Source of the DNA: Niebla homalea
Lineage: Eukaryota > Ascomycota > Lecanoromycetes > Lecanorales > Ramalinaceae
Direction of reading: 5' to 3'
Assembly: GCA_019925105.1 (NCBI GenBank)
Contig: JAHGAU010000001.1
Span: forward strand, 558,001 to 622,000
Length of the DNA stretch: 64,000 nt
The notes under the pieces are model-generated. The model was not told the DNA's origin and did not search any database. It saw only the letters and a program-made list of their open reading frames with translations. The position numbers and the translations under genes are program-made. Of the stretch, positions 2,279 to 45,462 are shown piece by piece. Numbering within the stretch: position 1 is the first letter of the stretch; the number at the start of each line of letters is the position of its first letter.

Positions 2279-2995
2279 TCAGGCGCGAACCAATAGGTGC
2301 ATGATCCGCCCGAAAGACTGGTCATCTCTCTCCCAGAATGTCTCGTCCCAGCCCATGTGCACTCGCTCAAACCTCTTTCGGGCGGAGCTCTTAGCTTCTG
2401 AGTAGTCTGCGTCGTACTGAATGCGTAGACCTTGCCAGAAATTGTATTGACCGCGGTATCTCACCTCGTCCTTTGGTGGCTCTTTCCCTCCCGCCAGAAT
2501 CTCACGATACCACTCAGCCTTCTCTAAAGCGAAGTCACTGAAGGTACGATTTGACTTGCATTCTTTCTTCATCGTTTGATATGTCTTCCGCCCGTGACAT
2601 GCTCTGCATACCTCCCCCCCCGGAATGTAGAGTTTTGCGGGATCATCGGTATGTCCACAGCCCCATGCTTGGTAATGCTGATGATCCGGGCAGCTCAAGC
2701 ATGCTGCTGCCGTTCCGCGGTCCGGGCAACCGCAGGCCCATCGCATCAGCTCCTGTTCACATGTAGCACAGTATCTCTGACTGTCCACGACAACCCTATG
2801 CGACTCGCCCAGGTGACCACATTTCCACGGTAATTCTTTGCTACAGTCCTCGCAGTCCAGATTTTGGTCTAGCCTTCCATCACCCATGTGTCCGCAAGCT
2901 AATCGATGATTGTCAAGCCACAAGTCGTTCATTTTGGTATCAGCGTACGGGCTCTCATTGGGGAACTCTGAAGAAAAGTGATGATAAGACATCAA
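2279..2995 (-). CDS. Four-module CxH-CxxC cysteine-rich protein (member 1)
   Basis: An intact single-exon frame of 238 residues with no family name that I recognise. The N-terminal half is four consecutive Cys/His modules: C34-x-H36 with C48-x2-C51, C59-x-H61 with C76-x2-C79, C88-x-C90 with C99-x2-C102, and C113-x-H115 with C130-x2-C133. Each module could hold one metal ion, probably zinc (inference). A charged helical region follows, and then a C-terminal segment with W-x4-W-x-R-D, also found in the members at 3825 and 5266. There is no signal peptide or membrane segment, so it is probably intracellular. Two adjacent Met codons open the frame; the first is used. A TATA-like box lies about 170 bp upstream. 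It is divergent from the frameshifted paralogue at 3825. No function can be assigned. Confidence 0.75.
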   Translation of the reverse strand: MMSYHHFSSEFPNESPYADTKMNDLWLDNHRLACGHMGDGRLDQNLDCEDCSKELPWKCGHLGESHRVVVDSQRYCATCEQELMRWACGCPDRGTAAACLSCPDHQHYQAWGCGHTDDPAKLYIPGGEVCRACHGRKTYQTMKKECKSNRTFSDFALEKAEWYREILAGGKEPPKDEVRYRGQYNFWQGLRIQYDADYSEAKSSARKRFERVHMGWDETFWERDDQSFGRIMHLLVRA

Positions 2996-3824
2996 GAAAA
3001 GCCGAGGGTCCTAGTGATACGTGGAGTCGAAAGATTTTGGTAGGTTTCTATTGAAAAAAAAGGCTTGAAGGTATTGCCAAAGACTCAAAGTCATCTAACT
3101 TTAGTGGTTAGTCAGGAGATATCTAGAGATTTGGAAAGAAAACAAGAAAAGCCGACAGATCAGCGCAATTTATAGCCAAAGTTCACTGCTGGGATCTAGT
3201 ACAGGTTGCACGTCAAGTGACGTCGCTTGAAACCAATAAGCCTACGGAGTACGGCATCAAACAGGCCATGTAGCAAACAAGGCGCGGAAGCACTTCCTCT
3301 AGATGCGTCATAGCTAATGAAGACCATGATCGGCGGCCATACTGACGGTAGTATGAGTCACCGCGACTGCAAAGCCAGCCAGTGATTGCGCAGGCTCATC
3401 AGTACTACCTTAGCGACGGCTCCTATTGATCGGGATAAGCGACGCATTCGTAAGCTTGGCTCCTCCGATTGCCGGGGCGCAGGGACATAGGAGTAGCGGC
3501 CAATCTGGCAGGATCAAGAGCCATCCGATGGGAGGCGATAGTACCACCTCGAGCTCAGGTTCAAGATGTATATCGCAAAGACACGACCCTTTCTGCGTGC
3601 ACTTACCGCTCTCCTATATGACAGTGTAGATGACGAGCGCCGAGAGCTTTTGGTTTCTTATTCAGCGGGCTCATAATGCCTTCTATCTGATCGAGATTCC
3701 CTCAACAATTATGATAATCCTTGGCCCACAGCCGCTGGTCATCCTCAGGGATAATCAAATTATCCCGCACAAGACAACTACAACCCCGTATTCGAACGCT
3801 TCCAAAATCTTTGCCCCTTTTGAC
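2996..3824. other. Divergent intergenic region between two paralogues
   Basis: About 830 bp separate the divergent members 1 and 2. It holds the TATA-like box of member 1. The open frame of member 2 extends upstream of 3825 on the plus strand, but that extension has no counterpart in member 1, so I treat it as non-coding. Confidence 0.4.
3168..3175 (-). promoter_or_regulatory. TATA-like box for the 2279-2995 gene
   Basis: On the minus strand the sequence is CTATAAAT, about 173 bp upstream of the ATG at 2995. Only its position and consensus support it. Confidence 0.35.
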
Positions 3825-4513
3825 ATGTTTCGGGACAATTCTCAAGACTCTTACAACAGGAAATACGTGCCGTCTTCCGAACTTCTGCTGCCCGATGAGC
3901 ACATCGACAAGTACCGGAAGAATTCGTGCCGCCATTTTGGGGGATCTGGAGGCGCGAATGCACACTACAAATGCACCAAGTGCAGAACTTGGAAGTGTGG
4001 CCACATCGGGGAGCCGCAAGAGGCCGTGAAAGATTACGAGAATTGTGATATATGCAAGCAGTTGAAAGATGGGCATGCGATTGCCCGGATCGTGGACGAG
4101 CGGACGCAACGTCGAATTGTCCGGACCATCGCGGTTGGATACCATGGGCGTGCACTCATACAGGTCCCCCGGAGCGGGTGCATGAATTTATGACGTGCAT
4201 ACTTTGTTGTGGTCGATCGACTTATGAAGCGTACATGGCTAGCGACAAGATCCAGGCAAAAATGGAGGCTATTTCAGACGAGGTGAAGCGCTGCAAAACT
4301 CTTCTGGCCAACGGAATGGACGGTGATAGGAGGCTATCGAGGAACGAACTCATCGCGCAGGAGACCAAGATGAGGACGCTCGGTGAAGAGCATAGCGTTG
4401 TGCACAAGGAGCTGCAGAGGATTGTAGTCCCGTCCCATGCTTCCAAAAAGCAATTCGGCAGACAATGGAGCCTTCGGGAGTGGGAGCAGGACTACAAAAG
4501 GAACCATCTATGA
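3825..4513 (+). pseudogene. Frameshifted CxH-CxxC protein (member 2)
   Basis: This is a paralogue of the 2279-2995 protein read in two frames. From the ATG at 3825 it gives modules C35-x-H37/C50-x2-C53 and C58-x-H60/C74-x2-C77. Near 4067 the homology jumps to the -1 frame, which continues with the RWAC-x-CPDRG third module, a C-x-H fourth module, a helical region and the C-terminal W-x3-EW-x-QD motif, ending at 4513. No GT donor at the junction could remove the shift by splicing, and one extra base in the AAA run would restore a single frame. It is either a pseudogene or carries a one-base sequence error. The frame is open upstream of 3825, but that part does not match member 1. Confidence 0.6.
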
Positions 4514-5265
4514 ATAGAAGTAATCTCCCCCGGGCTGTCGAAAGCAACCTTAACCGGGTGAACTGTGGAATTGCAGGCGGTCTTCATCGTCAGCATGTCT
4601 TTAGCTCGGTTGTAGGTCGACCTGGCTTTATGTGCTTTTCAGAATCGAGGTCCCAGCAAGTTCGGTCTCTGGTATTTGGAGGAGGATGTGAGTTATGTAT
4701 GTAGAGTAGGCCAACATCTTCAGGAGGTGGTCCATCTCGCATCACGATTGAGATCACAATCAAAGGTCCTTTTCCAATTTGGCAACTCTGCTAAGGATTC
4801 CTTCAACAGGGACACGTGATGAGTTTGGATTGATCATTCGAGGTTTCAAGCTGGGGTCTTCCAAGCTCTGCGCATTTTCAGAGACAATGTTATGGATTCC
4901 ACACATATATCCCAAAGACTTAAGTTTTCTAGTGTACACCTACAGCACTCCCAGATCAGTCATACGGCATCTAGTCTGGATGAGGAAGTTTCACTTTGAT
5001 TCTACGAAACCGTGGTCATGTAGTACTCGGAAGGACCGATCAAGCTTAGAAGTTTATTTGATTGTTGCAATGTACAGAATGACATGTAGACGTACAGAAC
5101 CAAAACATGGATTTCACTAGATGGTAATGGCACGCTTTGCATGAGATGCCACCCTGTGCCCCTAAACTCCAACCCTTGGCTTTGCTGGAAAGTCTTATCC
5201 AGGAACAGCCACGATTGTATCCAACCATCCCCAAACCTATGACATGCCCATCGTAAAGCTTCCCA
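4514..5265. other. Intergenic, nothing recognised
   Basis: Short frames on both strands lack family similarity or Cys-pair modules. It separates two convergent paralogues. Confidence 0.4.
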
Positions 5266-5889
5266 TCAGGTTCCGGTAAAAAAAGAAACTGGGCCTGGGG
5301 GGCTTCCGATGAGAGTAGACATAATCACCTCGTACTTCCTATAATCCTCTTGCCAATGTTGCTCATCGAACTTCCCATGGGAAAGTTCAAATTTTGCTAC
5401 CGCCTGTTGGCGTTTGAGAAGCTTTTGGTTGGTCTCTTCCTCTATCTGTCTAGCCAACGCAGCCATCCGATCATAAAATTTCATGTTTTGCTCTGTGCTC
5501 CAACTGTGTCGAAACTGTGCTGCCGCAGCCTCTTCATACTCGATCTCTTCATGGAGAGATCTGATGTTCTCTCGTGCTTGGCTGTCAATCTCACGCAATC
5601 TTTGAGTTGTTCGACGACCATCACATTTCCTGCATCCAGTATCGTAGAGAGCGTCAATCACCTCTGCCGGATCGCCGTAATGACGACATCCGGGCCACTT
5701 TATGTAGTGCCAATGGTGTATGCATGGTTGGCCGAATTTGATGGCTGAATCGGCGGTTGCTTCGTCTTCACACCCACATACCGCCCTCATCAACTCCCTA
5801 TGCAGGGCACAAAGCGGTACATCTACACCAGATGCCGATGGCCAAAGACAATCACACTCCAATTCTGGCAATGCTGGCATGGTTGACAT
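5266..5889 (-). CDS. Three-module CxH-CxxC cysteine-rich protein (member 3)
   Basis: An intact 207-residue frame related to the 2279 protein but lacking its first module. The modules are C12-x-C14/C27-x2-H30, C38-x-C40/C56-x2-H59 and C68-x-H70/C86-x2-C89. The stretch RELMRAVCGC matches QELMRWACGC of member 1, which fixes the alignment to modules 2-4. A long charged, probably coiled-coil region (about 95-180) is followed by the W-x-EDY C-terminal motif seen in the other members. There is no secretion signal. The start is the first ATG after an upstream stop-rich region holding a 16-bp tandem repeat and a TATA box. The function is unknown. Confidence 0.75.
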   Translation of the reverse strand: MSTMPALPELECDCLWPSASGVDVPLCALHRELMRAVCGCEDEATADSAIKFGQPCIHHWHYIKWPGCRHYGDPAEVIDALYDTGCRKCDGRRTTQRLREIDSQARENIRSLHEEIEYEEAAAAQFRHSWSTEQNMKFYDRMAALARQIEEETNQKLLKRQQAVAKFELSHGKFDEQHWQEDYRKYEVIMSTLIGSPPGPVSFFTGT

Positions 5890-5933
5890 GATTTAAGACT
5901 TGAGATCGAGTATGCTAGTACGGCTGGAATGAT

Positions 5934-6020
5934 GATGAGGAAGGGTAATGGTGAGGAAAGGTAACGGTGAGGGAGGGTAATGGTGAGGAAGGGTAATGGT
6001 GAGGAATGGTAATGATGAGG
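5934..6020. repeat. 16-bp tandem repeat, about 5.4 copies
   Basis: The unit GGTGAGGAAGGGTAAT is repeated with one or two changes per copy. It lies 45-131 bp upstream of the ATG at 5889, so it is in the leader or proximal promoter of member 3. Confidence 0.85.
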
Positions 6021-6132
6021 CAGTATCTGTTTATCGTAACAAGTCCTGAAATGTAATAGAACTCTGTGAAGACTTGCCAAGTGGATATCTCGAAGTAATG
6101 AGGATGAGAGAAGAAGTGCTGCAAGCAAGCAT

Positions 6133-6141
6133 CTTATATAG
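6133..6141 (-). promoter_or_regulatory. TATA box for the 5266-5889 gene
   Basis: The minus strand reads CTATATAAG, a near-consensus TATA box about 245 bp upstream of the start codon. The tandem repeat lies between it and the gene. Confidence 0.4.
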
Positions 6142-8055
6142 ACTGCGAGCTACTATCGCTGTCCTATACTCTTTCCGGTAATTCACGTGGTTGCAACCGT
6201 ATTACGTAGGGGGATATTATTTGAAACCAGATCAGTGACAGACTAGATATGTCAGTCGTGTCTGCTACTTCAGTGTAGCGAATGAGACCTTGCAGTCGTT
6301 CTCGTGGTTCTCGTGGTGGACGTCATGTGCATCATGCAAGCTTCCAGCTGATTGCTAGCCAGTGTTTGCAGAATATTGAGATTGTCACCTGGGCAGAACT
6401 TGCGCCCAGAGGTGCCACAAAGACACATTCGAAGCAGCGTGACGTGACGTTCCGCTTCCTTGGGCCACCAGGAGCACAAATCTAGCGGTATGAGTACTAA
6501 TCCTGTTCCAGTAGCGTGACCCCGGCCTTAGAAGCATTTCGTCTACGCTTCCTAATGAACGACATTGTGAATGCGGGATCAATGCACATCACATGGGACG
6601 TCTCAGAGCTGCGATCAATGAACTTCTTAACCCAGAGGGTGGAAATTTGAGCAGGCTTTGAAGCCTTATGTCACCCGCAGCTCGGGATGTCGCTCATGAT
6701 TCGAACATGCATGTAGGAATGTGTGCCTCATGGCGTGAGTAAATGTTCACTTCGTTTCAGATTAGCATCGTCATTGGCGAAGTATACTAGCAAAATTCAT
6801 ATCCCCAAAGCCTGTATCAGATTTTTGTTATACTGTGCTACGTGCAACCTACTCCATCAGAACCACGTGGGCAATTCGAGAATGGCCTAAAGATTGTTGA
6901 AGCGCAGCTACGGAAGAGTTTCTTTCGGGTTTTGGACATGGCGATCCTGGGACAGCACGCCGTTGGAGCAAATTTCGCAGCTTTGTCAGCACTGAGAACA
7001 TTCGAGTGGTATCGGCGTTGACCGCTCCTTGGTAGTTGACATGCATCCATAACGGCGTTCCATTGGAGGAACGATAGTGGCGGAAATAGGGGCTGTCGTC
7101 CATTGATCTACGTTCATTCCCGGCGAAGAAAATATCTTACGTCCCCTCGCACGCTCTTTCCAGCCTCGCGTTTGCTTGGAAATCTTGGAGATAAGCATGA
7201 ATATATCTGAGACGGCTTTGACGACGGACAGAATAATTTCATCGATCTGTTCGCTGCTCAAGGTTCAAGTACCAAGATGGCGCGGTGGTGAAAGCACTAT
7301 TAATATACCCATATGATAAGATCTCACATCAAGAATGAGCTCTATATAGCCCATGTTTTGGCGAGCATCATCTCGCAACAAAGTTGCAGAGCTAGCAAAA
7401 TGAGACCTGGACGGTGAGATTAGACTTGATGGTAGACTGCAAGTCGTCAAGACTACGATTGCTAGCTATGGTGCTGGAAGTAAATTGGGTGTTTGCTTTC
7501 AAACATCATTAGCCCTGGTATTTCGTTTGGCGCAGCTCTAGGATAAATAATAGAGGCTAACAGTCGTTATCTCATATAGGCAATTCCTCTTGAGGGAGGA
7601 CTCAATGTGACCGTTATCATTAGGTGTATCAAAATTTGGATCAGAGGCTACCTGAAGGTTTAACAAGTCTGCGGGTATGAACAGAGGAACAGGATCTTGA
7701 ATTCTGGTGGCCCTAAGATCTTCGCGGGCACTAAATAAGAGTTCGGATTGAAACAACATCAAGAAACGACAACGAAGGTGAAGGCCTTCTGAGTAAGCAA
7801 ACAAAAATTGTTGCCCTGAATGTTTAGCTCCACTATAGATCTCTTCGAGGTTGCCCCGGAAAAAATCCATGTACCATTTCCGGCATGAAGGAGACAAAGC
7901 TCAGCAACAGCTAATTGACTCTCACCCATCCAATGTGATCAACACTAGTGACCAAACCATGAGGTACTGCAGTATCTCCCAAAATCCTCCCTACACCCCC
8001 TTAAAACCTCACCATCCCCAATCAACGCCTCCTCATTCTCCCTCGCCCCAACACC

Positions 8056-8523
8056 TCACGGACCCTCTTTCTTCCACTCCCCATACTGATTCTCCCCATA
8101 CTGATACTCCCCCTTGGCCAGTACCTCATAACTCAGCATCTTCGCAAGCTGGTCCTCCCTCGCGCCCTCCAGCCCCCCAATTTCCTCCTCCAACCACTGG
8201 ATCTCCCTTCCCCACTCTCCCGGCAAATTCGGATTCTCCCTCACATCATCGCTGAGGCGGCCCAAGTCGCCCCGTTTCCGCGTGAGAGTCGTGTCGATGG
8301 CGCGGATGATGATGCAGTAGCGGTTGTTGGAGGCGGTGATGCGGGACTTGGTAAATTCCTGTGGGGAGGGAGAGAAGGGCATTCGTGAATTTCTGGAAGA
8401 AGGGAAGGGTGATGGGATTGTGAGGAGGGATGTACTGACCCAGGCATGCTGTTTGCATTGGAGGGGGGAGCCCTCGGGGGAGGGGGAGGGGCAGCCGCAG
8501 GTGTGGAGGTAGGGGCGGAGCAT
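8056..8523 (-). CDS. Small CxC-CxxH protein (member 4), two exons
   Basis: Exon 1 is 8440-8523 and exon 2 is 8056-8358, with an 81-nt intron (GTCAGT...CCCCACAG), giving 128 residues. The only Cys/His module is C9-x-C11 with C23-x2-H26, the same variant as the first module of the 5266 protein. The start HTCGCPSPSPEG is strikingly like HTCACPKSVPEG of the gene at 40197, which links the two clusters. The rest is charged and probably helical. The in-frame ATG at 8559 is an alternative start. The function is unknown and the gene model is moderately supported. Confidence 0.5.
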   Translation of the reverse strand: MLRPYLHTCGCPSPSPEGSPLQCKQHAWVSTSLLTIPSPFPSSRNSRMPFSPSPQEFTKSRITASNNRYCIIIRAIDTTLTRKRGDLGRLSDDVRENPNLPGEWGREIQWLEEEIGGLEGAREDQLAKMLSYEVLAKGEYQYGENQYGEWKKEGP

Positions 8524-9146
8524 GCCGATGTGTAAGATTCGATAATGTGGTGTGATCAAGGTGAGTGAATGGTGTTGTTGTGTTCTGGCAATGGATTGGT
8601 GTAGTGTTCATTGGTTTGGATACAGAGGCAAAAAAAGATAGCGATGCTTTGAGGTACCGGAACATCCATAATCACTCTGGCGTAACACCTTAGATGTGTC
8701 ATGCAACGTCACCGATGGGAATCCAACATAACACGAATCGGAGCTGTACACATGTTCGAAAGGATTATTGGTAGGCATTCCTGCGGACAGCGGTTTTTTG
8801 ATTAAGGTTTGGAAAATGTTTCCTCCAAAGGACTTTGTGCAGATGGACCTATATTTGATGGAACGATGATGAAATCTGTGAGGATCAAGTCGTGTTGTAA
8901 TCTCGTCATACTTGCTTAGCAGGAGCAAAGAATTCTGCAATCATTTTGATGAAATCTTTATAGGATGGGGCAAGTAAGAAAGCTCGGAAAACACAAATCA
9001 TGCGCAATTTGGTCTTCACATTTGCTAATCGTAGTATACTTCGTCACATAGCCTGCAAACCCGAAGTGCTTCTGTCATGACTTCCTTATTGGTTCTGTAT
9101 TCACCCTCTCGTAGAGTCAGGGATAAAACACGTCGTCGTACACTTC
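8524..9146. other. Intergenic, nothing recognised
   Basis: Short open frames only, with no module, repeat or RNA gene visible. Confidence 0.4.
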
Positions 9147-9671
9147 TCATGAGATTGTTCCATTTTCCAGTCCAGTCAACTCACGCCTCTGCTCCCGGAC
9201 GAGTCGCATCATATCTCCCTTCTCGCGAGTGTCGTGTGAATCTTTCTGCAAAGCTTGCAACACAAGTTCATTGGCAGGGATGTCCTCCTCCAGGGTCTCG
9301 ATTCTGAGCTTGACCTCTTTGACCTTGTCGTCGTACGACCCATATGGATATCTCTCCTTCACAATCACAATTTTCTCATAAATTGCGTCCTCCATATCCG
9401 TCTCTCTCCGCTTTTCGTCTTCGATGAATTGGGCGAAATCTTCGATGTCACGCGGGTTGTGCGGCTTGAACCTCATGGTTTGCAACACATGCTCGTCTGC
9501 AGCAATGACATTTCTGAGATCTTCGAGCTGCATTCCCAGGGTAGGATTTATGCGGGCTAGGCCTTCCTTGACTTCCTTTCTGGCGCAAGGCTCACATTTG
9601 ATGAGCTCGCCGCGGTAGTAATCAGAATCATGGCCGCATGTATATCGGTAAGGTTCCCTCCGCAGACACAT
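9147..9671 (-). CDS. Single-module CGH-CxxC coiled-coil protein (member 5)
   Basis: An uninterrupted 174-residue frame. One module, C12-G-H14 with C26-x2-C29-x-[KR], stands at the extreme N-terminus. The remaining 140 residues are very rich in Glu, Lys and Arg with heptad-like Leu/Ile/Val spacing and probably form coiled coils. This is the same architecture as the members at 41264 and 44978. There is no signal peptide or membrane segment. The family is unrecognised; metal binding by the Cys/His set is inferred from spacing only. Confidence 0.7.
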   Translation of the reverse strand: MCLRREPYRYTCGHDSDYYRGELIKCEPCARKEVKEGLARINPTLGMQLEDLRNVIAADEHVLQTMRFKPHNPRDIEDFAQFIEDEKRRETDMEDAIYEKIVIVKERYPYGSYDDKVKEVKLRIETLEEDIPANELVLQALQKDSHDTREKGDMMRLVREQRRELTGLENGTIS

Positions 9672-10203
9672 ATTCTTTGCTGGTGGATAGTCGCTTAGTA
9701 CAATTCCTAGTGAGAGTCGCTAAGTACAATTCCTGGCCTCTTTCAGAGACTGGGTTACCTATTTTGTTGATTTTGGATGCAGTTCGGGGAAGTTTTGAGA
9801 TGGGGGTTGAATGCTAAGGAAAAGATAATTTTCAATGTCCAATTGCTTTGTTGCATTGTCAAAGAACAAGTTGTGGAGAACAAAGCAGGCCATCAAATAC
9901 TGATTGCGAGACAATGACACCATGGTGATCACAGGCCATGGTGATTACAGGATATAGTGTCGTTCAGCGTTCATAATTCTGTTGCCGTTTCAACACCAGC
10001 TTGAAGCGCTTGCACGCCACTCGGTTCAAGGGAGGATCGAGACCAAGACTAATCGGCTTCGGTCCGCGGTAAAGTCCTCTCGAAGTTGTCTCGGTTAGAC
10101 TTGTTTTGACAGATCGAGGAGTGTTTGCAGGTAATTTCTTTGCCTGCATGCCTGCAATCTTTCGCGGTCATAACCCCAGACAGATTTACCCGTTTCCATT
10201 ACC
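9672..10203. other. Intergenic, nothing recognised
   Basis: No protein-like frame. It marks the boundary between the accessory cluster and the conserved block that begins with SRO7. Confidence 0.4.
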
Positions 10204-13200
10204 CTAGAATCCAAGTTTACTGGAAATGACTATATTTGATCAGATTAGCCTCTCAACGTGCTATGAGCTTAGTGACTCTCCGCATCACTCACATCCTTTC
10301 ACAGCCGCTTTCTTTTGATCTTTGATGAACTTATTGACGTCCTTGCTGAAGCCTTCGCTGTTGTCTTCGAGCCTGTCCATGTTGTCGCCAGTGATACCTA
10401 GATTGTCTGTCCGTTCCTGAATTTGCCTTTGCATGTATGCCCAATAGCCTTCCTCTTGCCTACCAGGCGCCTGTTGTGTTGACGAGGAAGCGGCATTTTG
10501 ACGAGCGCTCATTCGTTGAGCATGCTCATCTGCACGCATCTGTTCGATCATGCGTTTTGACGGGGGTCGATCAGGGCCGCCAATGAGCTTGTCCATGTCC
10601 GCGGGGGTCACGTAGGTCGTACCCGAGATCCATTGCAGGTTGGAGATGGTCGGGCGTGGTGGGATGAGCGCCTCTGGATTGAAGAGCTTGTCGAGAGATC
10701 TGGTCAAGTCCTGGCCAGAACCAAAGACGTTCAGAGCCACAATTTCAGAAGGCCCAGTCCATCCAAATATGAAGCCAGTGGGTGTCACAATGTCATCCGA
10801 AAGACGTCGAATGTCAAGAGTGTGGGAAATATTCACAGAAGCGAGCTCTTTCAGCCCCGGAATGGAGAAGGCTTTGGCTGTGCCATCTCCGAAAAGCCCG
10901 ATCAAGGCATACGTGTGAGCTTCAAATCGTGCTACGGTAGCTTGGTAGCAGATGAAATCATCCCAACTCTTGTGAGCGCCTTTCGCAGTAGCTGGCTTGA
11001 AGAGTCGCGCTCCAGTGCTACTCACTGCCAGTAAGGAGCCGTTCACCCGTGACCCTGTACGCAGACTGCCCACGATCTCCTGGGTGGCTGTGGCAGGCTC
11101 GCCAGTGTCCACATTGAGGGGCGACAAGGAGATGACTTTATCCTCCACAGAGCATGAACCGGCTAGCTTGACAGAGTACCCGCCAGAGGCCTCTGGTAAT
11201 AGCTTGAAGGTAATCAAGCGACCTAGATTTGTTCCCACAAAGATTAATATACTAGAATAGTCTACAATCTGTTAGCGTCCATCATCTCTTTCCCAAGGAG
11301 GCCCTACCTTCGCCCTCTATAGTCATTACACCAAATTCAATGGCAGTTGGCCATTCTGAGCCTTGCTGACCTACGGTCTGTCTTCGAAAGCTACTCCGCT
11401 TCGCTCCAGTATGACCGAGATCCGCAAGGCTAGCATCGTATATTACTGCGGGTCCTCTGAGATCGATGACAGTGACACTTCCACCTTCAAACCCAGCGCA
11501 GACGAAGCCTATATCGCTCATCTTGAGTGCTGTTACACACTCTTGTTTTTGGTCCAAGAGTGTCATGGGCGATAGTCCTTCTTTCATAGTCGGCTCAGCT
11601 CGATCTGTAATATTTTCCAGACCAAAGGAATGATTCTCTTTGTGTGAAATTTCACGACCATAAGTCGAATTTCTGGCCCAGCGAAAGATTGCCACCTCGC
11701 CAGTCCGGAGCCCAACGGCCAATTCAGCTGTTGCGCCAGCCATTGACATACACGCAACATCGATGTTCTCGTAACGACCAACGGCTCGGGCGACATCTAT
11801 CTGTAGCACGTCTTCGTTCTCGACCTCGTCTCCATGACCAGCATCATACAGTCGAATCGTACCATCAACATGGGCTGTTTGTAGAATGTTCCGGTGAGAA
11901 TAACGCATGAGCGAGCGTTTAGCTTCCGCACCACCCTTAAGAAATGGAGGCCCTTTGGATCGGCTCTCCACTAGTCCAAGCCACTTTGTTCGATCTACGT
12001 ATCCCATGGAAGTCTTGTCGACGAAGGGATGCACAAAGCTCAGGGAGATGTGTAATTGATTGGTAGGACTGATAGGGTGGCCTGACGGAAAGCTCATCGT
12101 CACCATCTCACCTGAAGCGAGTATTGCTATGACGGCAATTGGATCACTAGCACCTGCAAAATAGGGTGATCTGCGTGGGATCAAGCAGAAGTCGACGACC
12201 TCAGCATTTGGCGGGGTCGGGAGGATATGCTGGCGCTTTGGCTTGACGAAGTGGTCTGTTAGGACCTGCCAAGATGATGTTGCGTATACCGGAGTCGGGC
12301 CAAGATCGAGGAAGGTCAAGCCCTTTTTTGTCTCTGTAGTAGGCCTACCACCAGCAAAGAGAAGACCGGTATCATCCGGATTTTCCTTTGCGCACCAAGC
12401 GACTTTGAACCACGGCTCCCTGACTGCAAAGGTACCACGGCTCATTCCAGGAGTAGATTGTGTAGGGCCTGAATCTGTGCCATCGAGAGTACGTGCCAAA
12501 ATCTGTCTTCCATCCTTGGAGTCCCATATGACGAATGTGGAGTCCTCGTAACCCCCGAAGACGAATGTTCCGGTTGGATGCCATATGGCTTGTGTCAGCC
12601 GCGCGGCTCCTCCCGGACCACCAGAAGGTCCATCATACTTGAAGAATTTAGAGGCTTTGTTTTGCTGAAAGGAGAAGATTACAGCACCGTCGGAATACCC
12701 AATAAGTAGATTACCTATATGCCGAGGATGGAAAGCTAACGTCACAATGGGCTGAAAGCGAGACTTTGGATTCTGCTCCCGCCATAGGTTTGGGATCCGA
12801 AAAGGGGCAAGATTCTGCCTGTCCAGATCATATGCAATGACTTCGCCTTCAACTTTCTTCAGTCATATTTTTGAACCTAAGACTGAGCAGTACCCACCGT
12901 TCTGTAGCCCAATCAAAGCATAATCCAGGACTGGATCCGTGGCAATGCATGTGATTGCACCCGGTGGAGAATATGAAGTCAGAATACGCGTAGTCTCCAA
13001 GGAGAAAATGGAGATATCGTTCTTGGTATCAACGCTGATCAGTTTGTCTGCACAAAATTGGAGACTTTTTACAGAAGCTTTGCGGGGAAGCTTCAATGCA
13101 ACGGATACACGCTTTTGGCCGAAGACGTAGATCTCGCCACTTCCCAATTTAGACTCATTGGTGCCTACGGCTAAAAGAGATTGCACCGGATCATAAGCTA

Positions 13201-13383
13201 TGGCCGACAGTTGAGAGTTGACGCCATAGCGAGTGATCTTCATAGAATCAGTCAGACGTTGCGGTAGATGAGTTATACCCCAAAGTAATAGCTTACCTCG
13301 TCGATGGCAAACAATTGAGGGTCAAGACCTGCAGAGAAGTCGCGTTGTATCCCAGCTTGCTTTCCACGAAGAAAGTGAGCCAT
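10204..13383 (-). CDS. sro7: SRO7/Lgl/tomosyn-family exocytosis protein
   Basis: The protein belongs to the lethal giant larvae/Sro7 family of WD-repeat proteins. In yeast these bind the t-SNARE Sec9 and the Rab Sec4 and promote docking of secretory vesicles at the plasma membrane. Five exons were rebuilt: 13297-13383, 12898-13237, 11308-12846, 10293-11261 and 10204-10229, totalling 986 residues with all junctions in phase. The family-typical start MAHFLRGKQAGIQ, the ITRYGVN/AYDPVQSLLAVGT beta-propeller opening and a short terminal exon ending in KLGF support the model. The first 700 or so residues hold the double propeller, and the C-terminal third carries a charged SNARE-like tail. Without the last 63-nt intron the frame would stop nine residues earlier. 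It is divergently transcribed from PDC across 291 bp. Confidence 0.9.
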
Positions 13384-13674
13384 CTGCAGTAGCTCATTAC
13401 CCAATTTGAGGATATATAGATTTCTTGCTCACTGAGACCCTTCGGACGTGACGAGTCCCACCAGGCTTATCTTATCGCACTAGCTCCGGTCTAACCGCAA
13501 GGAGTATTAAGATGTTTTCCCGCCTGGGTTTCTGCGTCCGAGGGGTCACTGCGACAAACGGTGGAGAAGCTGCTATCCGAAAGATGCCGGAATCAGTATT
13601 TCTTCTTACGCTCCTTGGGATTCCACGAGATCTGGTCGCGGCAGAATTCAGTGGTTTGGCCATACCTTTTCGAT
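13384..13674. promoter_or_regulatory. Divergent promoter of SRO7 and PDC
   Basis: The 291-bp spacer between the two start codons must hold both promoters or leaders. An in-frame extension upstream of the PDC ATG exists, but family members start at the MATDIR-type position. No clear TATA box is visible. Confidence 0.4.
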
Positions 13675-36581: not shown

Positions 36582-36909
36582 AGGCTCCGAGTATCACAAC
36601 TCCCCTCTGTTGAGAATTGGCAAACACGAACGCATCAACCTCGATGGCATACTATGAAATTTGAAAATCGTCTCTTCTATGGGGACGATAGGGACGAACA
36701 TTGTTCCCATATTCACATACATGAGTATCCATTTGAAACCAGATCAATCTCACTGCTTTAGTAAAACATCCTATCAAGAGTAGCCTATCTCATTGAAACA
36801 AATCAATGGTATCTATGCTAACACGACGCAGAAACTTCGACTATCCAATCGATCATCCACCTGTTTTCCCCTCCCAGCTCATCCTCGCCTCCGTCGCTCG
36901 TCTCCCCAA
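36582..36909. other. 3' flanks of two convergent genes
   Basis: 328 bp between the ends of DNA ligase and the Pro/Ser-rich gene, AT-richer than both. No feature seen. Confidence 0.4.
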
Positions 36910-39356
36910 TCATTCACCCTCAGCCATGAACAACTTCCTCCATCTCCCCTGCGTCGGCACCACCGGCACAGTCGCTGCCGTCACCATCCGCCTACACCGC
37001 TCGTTCTCCTTCATCGCCAGCTCTTCCCGATACTGCTTCAGCGCCAGGGCGGCCTCATCGCACTGGTTGCGCGGATCCCAGTTCAACGGCTCCTCCACCC
37101 CGTTCTTGCTGATTCGCTTCTTACCGTCGTTGCAATTAGTCTCGCCGTTGCCATCTCTTTTGTCCTTGGTGACATGTCCAGACTTCGAAGATGAAGCACG
37201 ATTCTTTGCCGCGGTGGACGACCCCTTGATGTCTTTGCGGCCTCTTTTGGCACTCGGACGCTGAAGGCTGTCGGGCTCGGGCAATCTCTTGAGCCAATTG
37301 GGATTGCTCTTGACAGTCTCCTTTCGCTTGACCTCTTGCGCGTGCAGAACCATCTGCATATGACGTATCGAGATCGAGAGTGATTGATTGTCCACCTTCG
37401 ATTTCTCCAGCGCCGCCCTCAACCTCGCGTTCTCCTCTCGTTGCTCCCGCCGCTCGTCTTCCCAGGCCTGGTCTCGTTCCATGGAGAGGCGCTCGGCTTC
37501 TTCGTCCAAGTCTTCGGTCTGGCCTTCCCCTAGATCTCCAAGCTCGTCAACGTCCATGTCGCCAGATCCTACGCTTCCGCTCTGTTCGTCGGCTTCGTCA
37601 CCCTTGGGACCTTCTTTGTCCCTTCTTCTAGAATGGGACCCATCTTGTTTTCCTGAGGGTCCGGAACCAGACTCAGATCCAGAGTCGTCGCTGTCAGAAT
37701 TATCGTAGCCACAGAGCTCCATCAGCTGTTCCCGCGCCTTTGCTGCAGCAAGTCGGCGTGCTTCTGGACCATGCCAACGATTGAACTCGCTCCAGGCCTG
37801 GTCAATTTGGTAGTCTCGAAGATCTTCGTAGGACATCTTGTCCTCTGTCTTGTATTTCCGTAACAAGGCCACTACCACGGATGAATAACACTGGTCAGCC
37901 TAGCCTTACGCATATCGATGGTCAGGTTGTGCTGATTCTCAGGCGAGCTGGAAGGATCGAAACAACTAAAACAATGGCGAAGCAGTTCGGAGCACGACCC
38001 GAGCTTATGAATTAAAGGAGATGAATCGTACTCACAATGAACACTGCTGCTTGGATCATCCGTATTCATGCCATCAATCCAGTATTCCAGTCCACGAATT
38101 TTGGGCGCCCATCGATTTCGCACCTCAATCTCAGCTTGCACGGCCCGGTTCATAGTGCAAGCATAGCATCTTACTGCTTCTGGAATGGGTGGAGGTGGTG
38201 GTCTGGATACTTTAGCAGGTGAAACATCTGAGGAATGGGCTGGATGAGGCTGTTCGCTCTCGGTGGTCTCTGGATGTCCGTATGGTGCTGGCAAATGCGC
38301 ATCTTCCAATGACATCCTTCGCTTGGAACTGACATCGTGCAAGGCATCGGCCTTGGAAACTTTAGCGACTGCAGGCTTTTGGGAAGATGTGGGCAAAGAA
38401 AAGCCAGGAGTGATCGGAGGCGTGGGCATTGACTTGTCGTCGGAGACTGATGATTGACTTGCACCACAAGTACATGGCTTTGCCAGAGGTCTGTTCCTGG
38501 TGTTTGTTGCCACCAGATCCGAAGACATGCTTGATGGAGGCGGTGAGCTTGAGGGCACTTCCAGGGTATGTGAGAGCTTCCTCTTGCGGGGCAAGGGGCT
38601 GTTGACTGGTTTCCAAGCGGATGAACCTGTGGAAGAGGGCAAAGGCCGTGTGTCGGACCAGGTTACAGGTGCCTGATCTCCTGGTCCTGGCTTTGGTGAG
38701 TGACGAGGATCTCCTTCTACTCGCTCATCATTGCGCTGAGGAGGGCGCAGATATATTTTTGCTTTGCCCGGGTGCTGTGGTACCCCCGAAGTACCCGTAA
38801 TTTCAGAAGTGAGAAGACCTAGAGATTCATTTTGTCCTTCCTGAGAAGAGTCAAGATCTTGTGAGTAAGCGACCGTCGTGTGCGGCAATCGAGGTAGCTC
38901 AGGGAAGTGATTCGTGAATTTTAACGGTTTTGGTCGGGGGGATGGTGGTGGCTGAGGGTCGTCTGGTGGGTCTGCAAGGATATCTGGGATCCTGTTCGGT
39001 GTCTTTGGGGATGGAGGAGAGGCAGAGAGTGGTGAGACGGTCATCTCTGGAGAGGCGGGCCTGGAAGGTGTTGACGGCCTCGATGGCGGTGAGGTAAGCG
39101 GCTTATCGGCCATGCGTACGTTCTCAGGTGGGGTTGCAGACGCAGATGAGGAGGCCAAATGTGGAGTCATCATTGTCTCTGGTGAGGCTTGCCCGGAGAC
39201 GGGCGATTGAGCTGTGACAAGAGCCTCTTGTACCACATCAGGCGAATCAGTGGAATTTGACAATGTGTCAGGTGATCCAGGGGCCGTACCTTGCGATGGG
39301 GGTGGCGAAGAATCCATGGTGTCATCTAACAAAGCACTTGGCGGGCGATGTGTCAA
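36910..39356 (-). CDS. Pro/Ser-rich coiled-coil protein with CxxC and PKI-W-DG segment
   Basis: No known family recognised. Two exons (37910-39356, 36910-37844) joined by a 65-nt intron (GTAAGG...AAGACAG) give 793 residues. Residues 1-400 are disordered and rich in Pro, Ser and Thr, with a CTCG motif near 290. Near 400 comes RCYAC (C-x2-C) followed by PKIRGLEYWIDG. The small gene at 42288 has the matching arrangement CQACC then PKIQALSIWLDG. An acidic linker, a coiled coil (about 610-680) and a basic Lys/Arg-rich region follow. The first exon frame alone continues 16 codons past the donor before a stop. The Met 13 codons downstream (39317) is an alternative start. A nuclear or scaffold role is only a guess. 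Confidence 0.65.
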
Positions 39357-40196
39357 GATCCTATAGTAAGAGGTGTCGCAAAGAGAGTGAGAAGGTGAGA
39401 CTAGCTGTCACGACCAATCACAGGAGGTCAGCCGTCTGATTGGACGATGAATGATGGGGATAGTGAATATCCTCATTATCTCTGTCCCGGCCAACTGGCG
39501 GAATCAGTGGTTGTAGCAAGCAATGGATCGAACAGGAACACCTTTCAAGGAACATCGTCAGTGTAAACAAAAGGTTCAAGGACAGAGCTAAAATACAGGT
39601 TGCCGGTGCAAAGGGAAGGCGCCACCGAAGCCATACCCTTATGTGACGAGTATGACCCTATCCAGTCCAATCTCTTTCATTTGTCCATTCACAGTACTAT
39701 CGAAGCAATATTCATGATGCGATTACTACTATCGCTATTCGCAAGAGACACTGGATTATGGGCAACCCCGACAAATTGAACAAACCAACAACGCGGACGA
39801 AATCGTTTGATCGACCACATTTCCTCCACATCCGTAACGCGAACATTTGCGCTTTCGACACAGAGGTGTCTCGAAGGTATCACGGGACAGTAACGTTGAA
39901 AATGATGTTTACGAACTCATGATGCGAAAGATTCGTGCCAGTCTAGTCCTACTACTACAAGAGTCGCTGAGAGCCCAAGGTTTTGCTTTTGTGCTTACAC
40001 TCTCAGCTAAGTGCTCCTATGATCAATTTCTCCTACCCTGTTATTTTGGCTTCCTCATTCTGGCCCCGGGATTCCGACTTTCAGATACTCTTTACCATTG
40101 CACACACTGAGACCAGCAAGATACTTGATCCTCCTTGTCTCAAGCGACCGACCGTTGCTGAATGCATATCGATTCCATCCAAGATCAATTGCCGAA
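39357..40196. other. Intergenic, nothing recognised
   Basis: Between the Pro/Ser-rich gene and the first cluster-2 gene. Short frames only. Confidence 0.4.
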
Positions 40197-40709
40197 TCAT
40201 TGCTGGTCTGCCTCTTCCGCCGAATCTTCCTCGGGCGCGGACAAGTCAAATTGGTATTCCCATTGCTCGTCATCGGGCGCGTAGTAAATGTTCCAATCAT
40301 TTGTCGTCTTTATGATTGCTGCCCTCCTGTTTGTCCACAAACCCTGTTGCTTACTCTTCGCCACTTCCACTAACAAGCCTTAGCTTACTTGCATCTAATA
40401 AGATATCCTGGAGACGGATGTACATACACTCCGCTTTTGTTGCATGCGACTGTCAGATGTTGTCAGACATTTGTATTCACATATCAAATCTCGACGGATG
40501 CCACGACTTACCACGCCTTCCTCCACCTTTTGTATGTATGTCTTCAATTCAATAAGGTCGTCCTTGTGCAATTGTATGGCTGCCCTCCATTTCTTGAAGC
40601 TGCAGCTTATACAGTCGAAGGTGAAGAAGTACCTCGCGTGCCATGGTTTCTTGAAACCCCCTTCGGGTACTGATTTAGGACAAGCACATGTGTGCTTCGC
40701 AGGTGGCAT
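40197..40709 (-). CDS. Small CxC-CxxC protein (member 6), three exons
   Basis: Exons 40512-40709, 40389-40449 and 40197-40318 give 126 residues. The introns have GTAAGT and GTAAGC donors. The N-terminal module is C8-x-C10 with C33-x2-C36 followed by Lys-Lys, as in the other members. The start HTCACPKSVPEG resembles the 8056 protein. A helical middle leads to the C-terminal DWNIYYAPDDEQW, comparable to DWRTYYARLDRY of the neighbour at 41264; this match supports the third exon. There is no signal peptide. The promoter carries the shared 20-bp element. With exon 2 read through, the protein would end earlier, at 40351. Confidence 0.6.
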
Positions 40710-40887
40710 TATGAATGATGATGGTAATGATCCGATGGAAGAATCTGGAAGGTATGGGGAAGTAGCTTAAGCCAGAAAGCTCTTGTTGGTCTGGAGTTGA
40801 AGTGATACCAACGTTAAGCAGAAGATGGATGGTATGAAGAATGTGAGAGACTGGAGGGGCAAAAAGGACTTAAGTAGCTTCAAGGTC

Positions 40888-40907
40888 TGTGATACTCGAA
40901 CGCTGAA
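40888..40907 (-). promoter_or_regulatory. Shared cluster-2 promoter element, copy 1
   Basis: TGTGATACTCGAACGCTGAA on the plus strand, about 180 bp upstream of the 40709 start codon. It is nearly identical to the copies at 41948 and 45599, each upstream of a family member. A TATA-like CTTAAGTCC (minus strand) lies about 20 bp closer to the gene. Confidence 0.55.
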
Positions 40908-40963
40908 ACGCAGTCTCTTCGGCAGGCGATGCATCCGCTGGCGAACGTGACGCTTTGCACAAC

Positions 40964-41079
40964 GTCGTTACAGCATTGCCTTTGAAGAAATCAATGAGTT
41001 TCACCCGGCTTCGTGAGTAAGGTACCCAAAAACTTTGAAGCACTATTTTGGGTGGAATTCGTACCAAAAGCTCCTAACT
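40964..41079. repeat. Duplicated block, copy A
   Basis: It matches 42065-42168 with about 70-80% identity by eye. The best stretches are CGTTACAGCATT and TTTCACCCGGCTTCGTG, and both copies end in AGCTCCTA. Each copy lies just upstream of the shared promoter element of one family gene, so it marks a tandem duplication unit of about 1.1 kb. Confidence 0.8.
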
Positions 41080-41263
41080 AACTTTCCATGGCCTCCACTA
41101 ACATCTCTCAATCTGATGACAAGTCAAACAGGTATTCGAATTAATCGTTCTCCGGCATACTTTCTCCACCCGCCATTATTGGTGCTGAGGTAGCCTTCTT
41201 GTAGCACACATTTCATGCGGAAGAGACCAAACATCGAAGACCCCGTTAGTCGACCTGTTCAGA

Positions 41264-41790
41264 TCATTCAGATTCTGTTGAGTCATATCTATCAAGGCGC
41301 GCGTAATAAGTCCTCCAGTCCTCCCTCGCCGCTTCTACTTCACGGTCTAATGCTGCCTCTTCTTCCTTCTTCTCGTTAACAAGGATAGCTTTAGCCTTCC
41401 TGACTAAATGGAGAAGGACGTAAGCTCATGTGTTATGGAAGAGTCAAACCAGCCGCGAGACTTACGTGACGATGCGCTCATGCTTAGCCTTTCTACTTTT
41501 GTGTACGCAGGATCTTGTGGATCCATCTTTGCCTCCCTCATTTCCCTTAGGCGAGTGTCATGTTCCGTGAGCTTTTCATCTTTCGGAATTGCTGAAAGTC
41601 GTTGGGTGAGACTCTCAATTTCCGGATGGTGCCTCTGGTACGCTTCAATTGTCTTCTGCTCTTTGACTCGCTTGCAGCAGTCCTTGCAGTCATATCGACC
41701 ATATCTATCGTCTCTATATTGGCTGCGATCTCTGGCTATCCTGTGGCCACACCTATGGCTTGCATGTGTTCTTGCATATGTTGCGGCCAT
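41264..41790 (-). CDS. Small CGH-CxxC coiled-coil protein (member 7), two exons
   Basis: Exons 41466-41790 and 41264-41403 with a 62-nt intron (GTAAGT...CATTTAG) give 154 residues. The module is C14-G-H16 with C35-x2-C38-C39-K. The rest is strongly charged and helical, including an EKKEEE stretch, and ends DWRTYYARLDRY with an acidic tail. Without the intron the frame stops soon after the donor. It appears to be the tandem duplicate of the 40197 gene, since promoter element and flanking block are duplicated in the same order. The function is unknown; intracellular location is inferred from lack of a signal. Confidence 0.68.
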
Positions 41791-41921
41791 TGGGAAGTGA
41801 ACAAACCTGTCGAAGAGAAAGGATGAGAGTGCAAAAGAAATCGGGGCGGAGTAGTGGTGTCGAAGAACTTTCTTGAAGCCGGATCAAGGAGAAGAAAGAC
41901 GGACTCGACCGGAAAAAGCAG

Positions 41922-41975
41922 GGTATAAGTATGAGCCCAACAGAGCCTGTGATACTCGAGCTGTAAGCGTGAAAC
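41922..41975 (-). promoter_or_regulatory. TATA-like box and shared promoter element, copy 2
   Basis: The minus strand has ACTTATACC at 41922-41930. The plus strand carries TGTGATACTCGAGCTG at 41948, followed by GCGTGAAAC. The element lies about 158 bp upstream of the start codon at 41790, the same order and spacing as copies 1 and 3. Confidence 0.55.
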
Positions 41976-42064
41976 AAGTCAGGAGCCTCAATAGTCCTTG
42001 AGCTCTGAAACAAGGAACAGCATGCGAGATGGTCATGCGTTGGGTAGAGTGGAGCTTGGTAGAG

Positions 42065-42168
42065 CATCGTTACAGCATTCCTTGTGGAGAGACCAATAAT
42101 TTTCACCCGGCTTCGTGGGTAAGATATCCAAATATCTGAAAGGTGGAATCCACAGCAACAGCTCCTAC
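42065..42168. repeat. Duplicated block, copy B
   Basis: Partner of 40964-41079; see that entry. It lies between the promoter of the 41264 gene and the next gene's 3' end. Confidence 0.8.
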
Positions 42169-42287
42169 CTCACATTTCTGGCAATAAAGCTGCCATTCCT
42201 GCCAGGCTCAATATTTACAGGGATTCGCGTCCAAAACCTCGCTTTCCAGACAAGATTCCTCACGGACTGTCCAGCCCATCTTGACTC

Positions 42288-42776
42288 TCAGCTCTTACCA
42301 GGCTTGCCTATTGGCCACCATAGGTCGCAAATCGCCCATCCCCGGCCCGCCTGTTCCACCAAATCTTTCAACTCCTTCGCTTTCAGTTCAAATATCTCAT
42401 GCACTGCATCGACATCAGCATAGATCGTGCGACTGGATCTTGAGTTGGGGTTTTACAGGGACTTTCTTTTCTTGCGGCTTCACGTTCTTCGCGACTCCCG
42501 AATTCCGCTTCACACGTGGTTAGCAAAATGAGATGTCGGAGCAGATTTGACGGCACAACCATCCAAAAACGCTTCACTGTCGTACCACCCGTCGAGCCAT
42601 ATTGACAACGCCTGGATCTTGGGTTTCATTTCTGCCTCCTTGTCTGTAGCGGCCTTTATGCAGCATGCTTGGCATTGCACGTAGTGCCTAATGTTGTAGC
42701 CGTGAAGGCACCGGTACTCTTTTTCCGCGGGAGGCGAAGGTAAAAGGTGGAGAGCAGGAAAAGGACGTAAAGGCAT
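42288..42776 (-). CDS. Small CxH-CxxC protein (member 8), three exons
   Basis: Exons 42578-42776, 42457-42507 and 42288-42403 give 121 residues. The first intron has a near-perfect TTGCTAACC branch site and the second an ATGCTGATG site. The module is C23-x-H25 with C35-x2-C38-C39-x-K. It is followed by PKIQALSIWLDGW, which closely matches PKIRGLEYWIDG in the large protein at 36910-39356. A charged helical stretch with SREEREAARKE and a Trp-rich C-terminus (GWAICDLWW) complete it. The donor of the first intron (GTGAAG) is weak, so that junction is less sure. Without it the frame would end 42510-42512 at residue 89. Confidence 0.58.
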
Positions 42777-44626
42777 CTTGAACGTCAGGACGATTACGAA
42801 AACGTAGGCTATGGAGCAGCAGATTTTGCCCGAGACATGGTGACTATATAAATTAGAAACGAAGGGGGGAAAACGACAGGCAAGGTCACAGGATCTTATG
42901 CACTTAAACCACTGCGATACTTGCCACACATCGAAATGATCATTTGATTTGGGCGGGAGTAGTCACGCGGTAAAAGAAGAGAGTCCCCAAAAGCTCATAC
43001 GACATTGGCTCGGCATGGCTTCCTCGACAAATCTCATACACTTCCACGTGAAACTGCAAGGGTTCGCACCAATCGGAATAACAGGGGCAGAGAGCTGGAC
43101 CAACTAAAATCCGACGCAGCATTATCCCCATAGATCCTGTTTCCTGATGTCCCCGTCTCAACCGTTAGGTTGATTTGTATACAGGACTCTAAATACGATA
43201 AGGAGAGGCATTCTGAAGGCCACTATTGAGGTATAAATCGGCAGAATAAGATCTAGCAAGCTTGTCCCAAAGCTGCGACACCCAAAGCAATACTAACCAA
43301 AGCCCTGATCAGAAAACTTTTCCTATGATGGCTCATCGTGATTAGCTGAGCATCAAATAATCCTATGATTGATTAGCTTGAGTAGTCACGGGGTAAGTGA
43401 GGCTCCAGGCTGCTAGGATATCGGTATAGCATCGCTTCTCTGCTAGAACCAAACCTCATTAGTTCTACCCAGACATCTAGTCTAAGAGGGGAGAGCATCC
43501 TGCAACGAGAGATAAGACGTATTGCAACCGAGATTTGAAGGGAGCTCCAGCTATATATAGCTATGCGCCCCCCCCTCCGGGGTAGCACCCCCGAAGAAAG
43601 CAGCAACTTCAGTTCTACTAGATCTGCTAGATTCAAGCTTTTAGTCAAAGGATATATAGTCTGTCTTGACATCCCAAGGAACGCAGCTGGAGGAGGGCTG
43701 ATGATTCATTACCCCTATCCTCGCCTCCCCCGCTGCTTGGACGTGTCTTGATCGTCCGTTAAGTGTAGTATTTCAAAATTAAAAAAAATAGATAAACAAG
43801 CTTCCCATGCTTCGTCTAATTCCACCCTGGACCGATATGCTGAGAAGCAAGGGGGCATTGGGCAAATTTTTTTGCCACTGGCTGCTGGTACCCGTTTCTC
43901 TCGTGGATCATCAGGTACTATGATCATCTGGAGCAGGAGGACGAGGAGAAGGAGGAGGGGGCGGTATATGCACACAAACACCCATTCTCTCCATTCCCCC
44001 CCCCCAGAGACGCCCAAGCTTTTCTCCAGCAGTAGTGGAAAATTGTGTGGCTGGTCTGTCTCTCTCTCTCTCCCTCTCTCTCACGAAGTCTTCTTTTCTT
44101 GTTCTCCGTGCATCAATAGTCCTTGCAATTGAGAGTGTGTGGGAGGATGAATGAGTTATAGCGGGACAAGGTTGTAATCCGTTGAAGGTAGTTATGAGGG
44201 CTGTGATTGTGCTTTGTGAGGATCGGGCATTCTGGATGAGTTTGAGGGTTTTTAAGAGTGCAAACAGCGAGGTGGGGGGAGAAATCTGAGAGTGCTGATG
44301 ATGGTGCAGAATTAGGATGGAAGGATGGAAAAAAGAACGCAGTATGACCGGTAGACTCAGGCCTGGTTTGGAAAGGCAATCATAGTACAACATCGGCTCA
44401 GCTAAATGATTTGATGCACTTTTACATAGACCTTCTAATTGTAGACACCTGGATTATGTTGAGACGAAGTCTGTCCCACCCATCTTTTCGAGGCCACTGC
44501 TCCGGTGATCGTGGGCAGATGATTTGCCTTCCCAGTGAGACGCATCGCCTGATCGTTGACAGGACCGTTAGCTTCAGATGGCAGGAATTAAACAGACACT
44601 GTCATTCTCTTGGGGTTGTTGCCAAA
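42777..44626. other. 1.85-kb intergenic region
   Basis: Holds the TATA box of the 42288 gene, a C-run near 43,565 and a CT-rich simple repeat near 44,060-44,090. A 160-codon minus-strand frame over the CT repeat (43911-44393) is low-complexity and not credible. No other family member found. Confidence 0.4.
42845..42853 (-). promoter_or_regulatory. TATA box for the 42288-42776 gene
   Basis: The minus strand reads ATTTATATA, 69 bp upstream of the start codon at 42776. This gene lacks the 20-bp element shared by three of its neighbours. Confidence 0.4.
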
Positions 44627-44877
44627 ATGTCGGACCCAGGAAAAGGAGCAGCGAAAAGAAAGGGCAGCAAAGGCAAGGCCTCCTCCACCAACTGTCTGTG
44701 AGATTACCGGCCTAAAATTCTGGAACAAGCAGGAAGGGTAATTACACTGGTGATGATGAAAAGCAAGAGTCTGTCCAAGGTCTAGCCCAGCTAAACACTC
44801 CCGAGGATCCTCTCGTTGATCATGCTAACCTTTGCTGGCAATCACCGACTACAAAAGCTTTCATTCTTGCCTATTAG
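44627..44877 (+). CDS. Possible small Lys-rich protein
   Basis: A 24-codon basic start (MSDPGKGAAKRKGSKGKASS) stops at a TGA inside a GTGAGA donor. If a 35-nt intron ending AAGCAG is removed, the frame continues through GDDEKQESVQGLAQLNTPEDP to a stop at 44877, giving about 71 residues. Thirty-five nucleotides is shorter than the other introns here, so the model is weak. No family is recognised and it has no CxxC module. It is the only plus-strand candidate among the cluster-2 genes. Confidence 0.28.
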
Positions 44878-44977
44878 CCATTTCTGACCAATGTGTATGC
44901 TTTCCCATACCGCTGACACCTTTGAGTAACAAATGTCTCATCTCGACCTCACTCTTCTCATTTTAGTATGCCGGCAT

Positions 44978-45462
44978 TTAGTCGCCATAGTTTTGGTTGT
45001 AGACTTTCCATGCTTGCTTGTGTTCTTTGCATCTCCTCCGAACCGCCTCCTCCAACTCGTTCGTCAATGTTGTGAGTTCTGCCACCTTCTGTTTTCGATG
45101 GTCTTGATATTGTTGAAGATTCCCTCATAGTTCCCTTGAGATGCTATCAGCGATGTTCATTGGGGGAGAAGCGGATGGATTTACTCGCCTTTTGCTGCCT
45201 TTGGCACGCTCGCCAGCCACCATAAAGTACCTTCTACTTCTCGAATCTTAGCCTGAGTCTGTGCACACGAGGCTTCGAACTGCTTGTCCACTTCTTCCAC
45301 ATCCTTCATGGTCTTCTTGATGCAGCAATCTTCGCATTCATATACATGCTTGATGTGCTTGCCATGGTCACACCGATACAGACCTTCGCGTGCGTAGTGA
45401 CCAGGGCCATGTTGATAAGATTCTGCGTTATAACCGGGACCATGGAGATAAAGACTAGGCAT
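44978..45462 (-). pseudogene. CxH-CxxC coiled-coil gene with premature stop (member 9)
   Basis: Exon 1 is 45185-45462. A 50-nt intron (GTAAAT...CTGAT...CTCAAG) joins it to a second exon starting at 45134. The module is C31-x-H33 with C43-x2-C46-C47-x-K-K. In exon 2 the frame meets TGA at 45125-45127 after three codons. Beyond it the same frame is open for another 48 codons of coiled coil ending AWKVYNQNYGD at 44978, matching the C-termini of the 40197 and 41264 proteins. A CGA-to-TGA change would explain this. The gene now encodes about 95 residues with the module intact, so it may be a truncated working form or a recent pseudogene. Confidence 0.6.

Follow-up and report, generated by a model that had tools for sequence, protein, structure and literature searches.

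RING-like cross-braced fingers hold their metals between ligand pairs 1 and 3 and between pairs 2 and 4, and fungal proteomes contain many unnamed proteins with CGH modules. Hairpin-helix zinc sites are described for CW, E7 and Ash2L in those sections of PMC4999995 that deal with them. Here, we analyze Cys/His-module proteins encoded in a 64-kb stretch of the Niebla homalea genome (positions 558,001–622,000 of contig C1, hereafter the window; the whole assembly comprises 50.6 Mb in 52 contigs). A first-pass annotation had pointed to nine loci, here lettered A to I by rising coordinate (2279, 3825, 5266, 8056, 9147, 40197, 41264, 42288, 44978), the products of which carry the pattern C-x-[HC]-x(8-22)-C-x2-[CH], and all nine are present. 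We show that A, B and C, together with a pair of genes on another contig (C6), form one real family that is unnamed in the libraries searched. We tentatively propose, with a probability of roughly 45%, that these are small intracellular fungal adaptor proteins, consisting of zinc modules and a helical hairpin, that duplicate and diverge fast. The C6 site, relatives outside this genome, the repetition of the modules from one to four times and the upstream DNA common to F, G and I are additions to the first-pass annotation.

The core family

Locus A (2279..2992, minus strand) encodes 237 amino acids in a frame that is open from 2992 (217 amino acids from the ATG at 2932), with four tandem modules (CGH..CEDC, CGH..CATC, CGC..CPDH and CGH..CRAC) followed by a helical hairpin and a W-x4-W motif. 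Locus C (5266..5889, minus strand; 207 amino acids) contains three modules (CDC..CALH, CGC..CIHH and CRH..CRKC) and a helical tail with W-x-EDY. Locus B (3825..4513, plus strand) encompasses four modules distributed over two reading frames (3825.. and 4049..4513), the frame being lost between modules 2 and 3. The conserved parts of B are too near each other to leave room for an intron between the two frames, and either the copy has decayed or the assembly is wrong at this point. Of what the first-pass annotation had suggested, divergence and one broken, frameshifted copy (B) are supported.

A protein-level search of the genome with A retrieves B and C at E 2e-10, followed by pieces of contigs C6 (E 0.005) and C8 (E 0.007, interrupted by a stop). 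The C6 match leads to two tandem genes at 78–80 kb, one of which retrieves the other at E 4e-12, so that, with A, B, C and the C6 pair, the genome has at least five such genes. Outside this genome, one protein (P0001) is 45% identical to A over the full length, and three others (P0002–P0004) are relatives of the C6 type (E 3e-20 to 3e-18). These four are all the relatives that the protein database yielded, and given that its fungal coverage is uncertain and that intron-bearing genes were probably missed, they say little about the spread of the family.

Across six aligned sequences (A, C, P0001, the two C6 genes and the second piece of B), eight Cys/His residues do not vary, nor do one Gly and one Trp; their order is CxC..CxxH..CxH..CxxC, then the Gly and the C-terminal Trp. 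In their predicted form, P0002–P0004 come without the first ligand pair, and the remaining six ligands, the Gly and the Trp are kept in nine of nine sequences. A profile of the A/B/C-type module, searched against 3,822 open reading frames (ORFs) from 264 kb, gives A, B and C E values of 7e-40 to 3e-14, which, with the modules of these loci included in the profile, mainly indicate that no other ORF comes near.

None of the window loci, the C6 pair or P0001–P0004 reaches the curated cut-off of any Pfam-A family, nor does any of the nine window pieces, the only ones scanned there, reach that of an NCBIfam family, in agreement with the earlier claim that the family was undescribed. Zinc-related Pfam matches of the outside proteins are far below the cut-offs (zf-C3HC for P0002, E 0.1; the C17orf50 zinc-binding domain for P0003, E 0.0066). 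Sequence searches of the PDB with A and two core profiles gave no match (the best, at E 0.05, is the Fc fragment of IgE receptor II), and scanning for exact copies of short peptides (from A and P0002 in viral contigs, from A also in the genomes of prokaryotes), which reaches close relatives only, detected no relative. No publication on this family turned up among those listed, judging by titles and the beginnings of abstracts. Three matches were taken as noise, namely, that of C to a CARF profile (E 0.016) among five proteins analyzed with PADLOC and, in NCBIfam, that of E to EzrA (21.4 bits against a cut-off of 556) and one of H (E 0.1).

The C8 piece (L013:1558-1713) is short and open, of the form MCQISHRETYWGCGH..C..C, and runs into stops; its start (MCQI..WGCGH) resembles that of locus E (MCLRREPYRYTCGH). 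It may be one more intron-bearing gene of the CGH type, or else a remnant. The other genome matches (on C7, E 0.75; C3, 0.37; C34, 1.65; C31, 1.77) were omitted as too weak or unexplained.

Single-module loci

The Cys/His pattern is concentrated in two parts of the window, around 1–10 kb and 40–46 kb. Among ORFs of at least 60 amino acids, counted from stop to stop, 11 of the 115 that overlap these clusters contain it, compared with 11 of the 1,810 elsewhere in the 264 kb (4/338 in the window and 7/1,472 in the 200-kb flank; Fisher p 9e-9, with the cluster limits set post hoc, once the loci were known). The 11 cluster ORFs are the nine loci, with B counted as two ORFs, and one ORF antisense to B; the two linked clusters of the first-pass annotation hold up. 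When residues were shuffled 10,000 times, a test that is likewise post hoc, ten pieces (A, both pieces of B, and C to I) had their own motif count matched in 0–2.6% of the shuffles. Chance matches do exist, 2 of the 196 ORFs in eight 3-kb pieces chosen by an unrelated octamer containing the pattern, so that a single motif proves little and every locus needs separate support. One of the seven flanking ORFs with the pattern lies at window coordinates -918 to -427 on the minus strand, 3 kb from locus A. Codon-usage scoring (37 training and 315 shadow ORFs) was dropped, the bias being too weak to tell genes from chance ORFs.

Loci D to I, all on the minus strand, contain one module each; the tandem arrays of A, B and C are a correction to the first-pass annotation. 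D (8056..8523) has the module CGC..CKQH and exons at 8440-8523 and 8056-8358, and E (9147..9671; 174 amino acids) is intronless, with the module CGH..CEPC followed by a charged helical region. In the second cluster, F (40197..40709; exons 40512-40709 and 40197-40343; CAC-x22-CISC) and G (41264..41790; exons 41466-41790 and 41264-41403; CGH-x18-CKDC) both end in a DW-x2-YY tail. H (42288..42776) has CLH-x9-CQAC-C in the first exon and an uncertain second-exon boundary, and I (44978..45462; exons 45231-45462 and 44978-45123) has CDH-x9-CEDC-C and an AW-x2-Y tail. With splice sites chosen by eye, two-exon models with GT-AG introns are open for D, F, G and I (introns of 81, 168, 62 and 107 nucleotides, respectively); the second exon of H could not be modelled. 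The Trp/Tyr end motif that had been noted in most of the proteins is missing from D and E when searched for by regular expression.

The claim that all nine loci belong to one family was not borne out in the form in which it had been made. In the module profile search, I appears at E 0.78, below three unrelated ORFs, F and H appear at E 17 and 22, respectively, and D, E and G give no match within E 50. When sequences were shuffled with Cys and His fixed, I reached P 0.036, and the other five were no better than shuffles (P 0.079 to 0.91). Comparison with the core by hhalign gave 7.9% for a profile of I, H and G and 1.8% for E; profile links between alignments A4 and A5 and between A5 and E, weak and in register, speak for the adaptor family. 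An alignment of E, I, H and G in which the modules were misplaced was not used.

The chief competitor of the adaptor family is that there are two or more unrelated sets, with A, B and C as one family and D to I as young or unrelated genes that have only a simple Cys/His pattern in common with it. Both the profile and the shuffles with fixed Cys and His fail to join D–I to A–C, the I/H/G profile found no outside relative among 257 candidates, and ORFs with the motif arise by chance. Against this stand the clustering, the open frames of the two-exon models, the DNA common to the upstream regions of F, G and I (see below) and the fact that best non-self matches among the 3,822 ORFs fall within the same loci, D matching F (E 0.016) and F matching D, H matching I and I matching H, and G matching I. 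The match of H to I has E 7e-4 and 2e-3 genome-wide. We put the chance of unrelated sets at about one in four, which makes them unlikely and still the strongest of the competing readings. To us, D to I look like related genes, fast-changing cousins of the core family, with a link to A–C that depends mainly on the Cys/His pattern; judged from sequence, common descent of all nine loci is likely.

A long ORF next to the second cluster (37875..39317, minus strand) contains, near its C-terminus, a 35-column stretch (VRCYAC..PKI..L..W.DG) that weakly matches H, and from this resemblance it is a possible source or relative of H.

Upstream DNA of F, G and I

Upstream of F, a block on the minus strand (40844..41092) is 72% identical, over 227 aligned nucleotides, to a block upstream of G (41948..42182, minus strand), its one other match in the genome, and part of it is 70% identical, over 99 nucleotides, to a block upstream of I (45578..45680, minus strand). 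All three blocks include a 14-mer of the form GYTCGAGWATCACA (40888..40901 at F, 41948..41961 at G and 45599..45612 at I, minus strand), of which there are three in the entire genome. The coding DNA of F, G and I has no clear similarity, unlike the aligned upstream blocks (about 70% identical), so that, by this comparison of sequences, the upstream DNA is better conserved than the coding DNA. Rfam had nothing at gathering score in 38–47 kb. Under the adaptor-family proposal, F, G and I would have arisen by duplication, with the upstream DNA retained and the coding part changed beyond recognition. A further, rather doubtful step would be to regard the second cluster as a gene nursery, in which tandem copying multiplies a conserved promoter and the zinc-module protein behind it is rapidly remade.

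Predicted structure and possible function

Nine sequences were used as AlphaFold input, and models were obtained for A and a C6 member. The model of A (mean pLDDT 65) contains helices at residues 110-147, 156-191 and 197-216, confident except for the last residues, and has block mean pLDDT values of 35-57 ahead of residue 110. In the C6 model (mean pLDDT 70), strands 30-33 and 39-41 flank C36-G-H38, C53 and C56 are located at the start of the first of two long helices (54-91 and 97-132), and a short helix (137-145) bears the invariant W140; residues 21-50 have block pLDDT of 52-62. The helical hairpin (block pLDDT 80-97) and the placement of CxxC at a helix start are found in both models. Because the models are poor over the greater part of the ligand region, zinc binding is something that we infer.

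Taken with that reservation, the C6 model suggests a hairpin-helix zinc site like that of CW, E7 and Ash2L, or a reduced treble clef. Compared with the treble clef as the relevant sections of PMC4999995 present it, the likeness, as modelled, consists in four ligands in two pairs, the first knuckle-like and the second at a helix start; the differences are that the first pair here is C-x-H or C-x-C as opposed to the CPXCG consensus, and that the C6 model is without a second hairpin between the pairs, in a stretch of low to moderate confidence. The hairpin-helix sites covered in those sections differ in that the Pfam scans of our family gave no sequence match to CW, E7 or Ash2L, the modelled stretch again being of low to moderate confidence.

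We envisage that each C-x-[H/C]..C-x2-[C/H] module binds one zinc independently, with the first ligand pair placed where a short beta hairpin turns and the second at a helix start. One to four such modules in a row would precede an antiparallel helical hairpin, and core members would end in the short Trp-bearing helix. Judging by this architecture, the modules may bind a partner, and the hairpin may pair or oligomerise.

The eight-ligand unit (CxC, CxxH, CxH, CxxC) could instead be RING-like and cross-braced, its two zincs interleaved, in which case the proteins might be ubiquitin ligases. Eight ligands in four pairs, as in a two-module unit, are indeed invariant in the core alignment, and the top Pfam match of A is the zinc finger zf-Vps39_C, far below the cut-off (13.5 versus 24.7 bits, E 0.055). 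The number of modules per protein (4, 4, 3, 2 or 1) speaks for a separate metal in each module and against a cross-brace: modules occur singly and in odd numbers, and cross-bracing would leave C, with three, and D–I, with one each, half built. Given also that no RING family was listed for any protein scanned, we consider a RING-like domain improbable.

Equally improbable, in our judgment, is that these are nuclear zinc proteins that bind nucleic acid or are regulatory. The zinc-module pattern, the frequent Lys/Arg after CxxC of the modules and the pI of 8.2-8.5 for three of ten window pieces (G and both pieces of B; 8.2-9.2 when P0002 and P0003 are included) would suit such a role. The other seven pieces (A, C, D, E, F, I and the first exon of H) have a pI of 5.1-6.7, which argues mildly against general binding, and no DNA- or RNA-binding family scores above cut-off.

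The adaptor proteins that we favor would be intracellular. With the second exon of H left out, no 19-residue Kyte-Doolittle mean exceeds 1.0 in the window pieces tested, which agrees with the absence of a membrane helix noted previously, and N-terminal 10-residue means are at most 0.89 (by hydropathy only). By the same measure, the frame of one C6 gene (C6b) begins at 2.47, but there is no ATG before the first Cys. A role in which selection keeps changing would suit the clustering, the duplication and the single broken copy.

That the loci are remains of a mobile element or of the zinc region of its transposase is highly improbable: copies are present on two contigs and one is frameshifted, but no transposase family passes, the F block is matched once elsewhere, at G, repeats in the window amount to one 99-nucleotide pair and one 16-nucleotide minisatellite (14-nucleotide seeds, 40-nucleotide minimum), and the 6-kb bins over the clusters are without a signal of repeat-induced mutation.

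Genomic surroundings

The minisatellite (16-nucleotide spacing, window 5916-6039), for which six overlapping 44-nucleotide copies were reported, lies just upstream of locus C. Between the two clusters (10288-36578) are Lgl, TPP-enzyme, THUMP, MFS, CBS, PAS, RINT1/TIP1 and DNA ligase genes, and a NOP9 gene is also among the neighbors; the introns and the Lgl, HET and NOP9 neighbors are consistent with fungal DNA. The HET-domain (heterokaryon incompatibility) protein is encoded at L032:1305-3314, about 27–29 kb to the left of the window on C1 (Pfam E 1e-32), and given this distance, a tie to the first cluster is speculative. Among 44 bins of 6 kb, the sole one with a signature of repeat-induced mutation (GC 0.34, TpA/ApT 1.09) is in the C1 flank, starting at window coordinate 146000. 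The C6 pair is located in L045-L046 (C6:68-88 kb) among ORFs that, by eye, resemble a P450, an FAD oxidase and a short-chain dehydrogenase, with an enoyl reductase and a Zn2Cys6 regulator further among them; on this visual assignment, the surroundings are perhaps a secondary-metabolite cluster.

Implications

If the adaptor-family proposal is correct, the libraries would gain a further arrangement of zinc modules, that of an unnamed fungal family with an architecture of one to four modules. At F, G and I, the upstream DNA is alike and the coding DNA not clearly so, which inverts the usual order; these loci allow one to test directly how small genes that change fast maintain their expression. 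Should the second cluster be a gene nursery, coding similarity would be lost before promoter similarity, giving rise to a lineage-specific set of recognition proteins.
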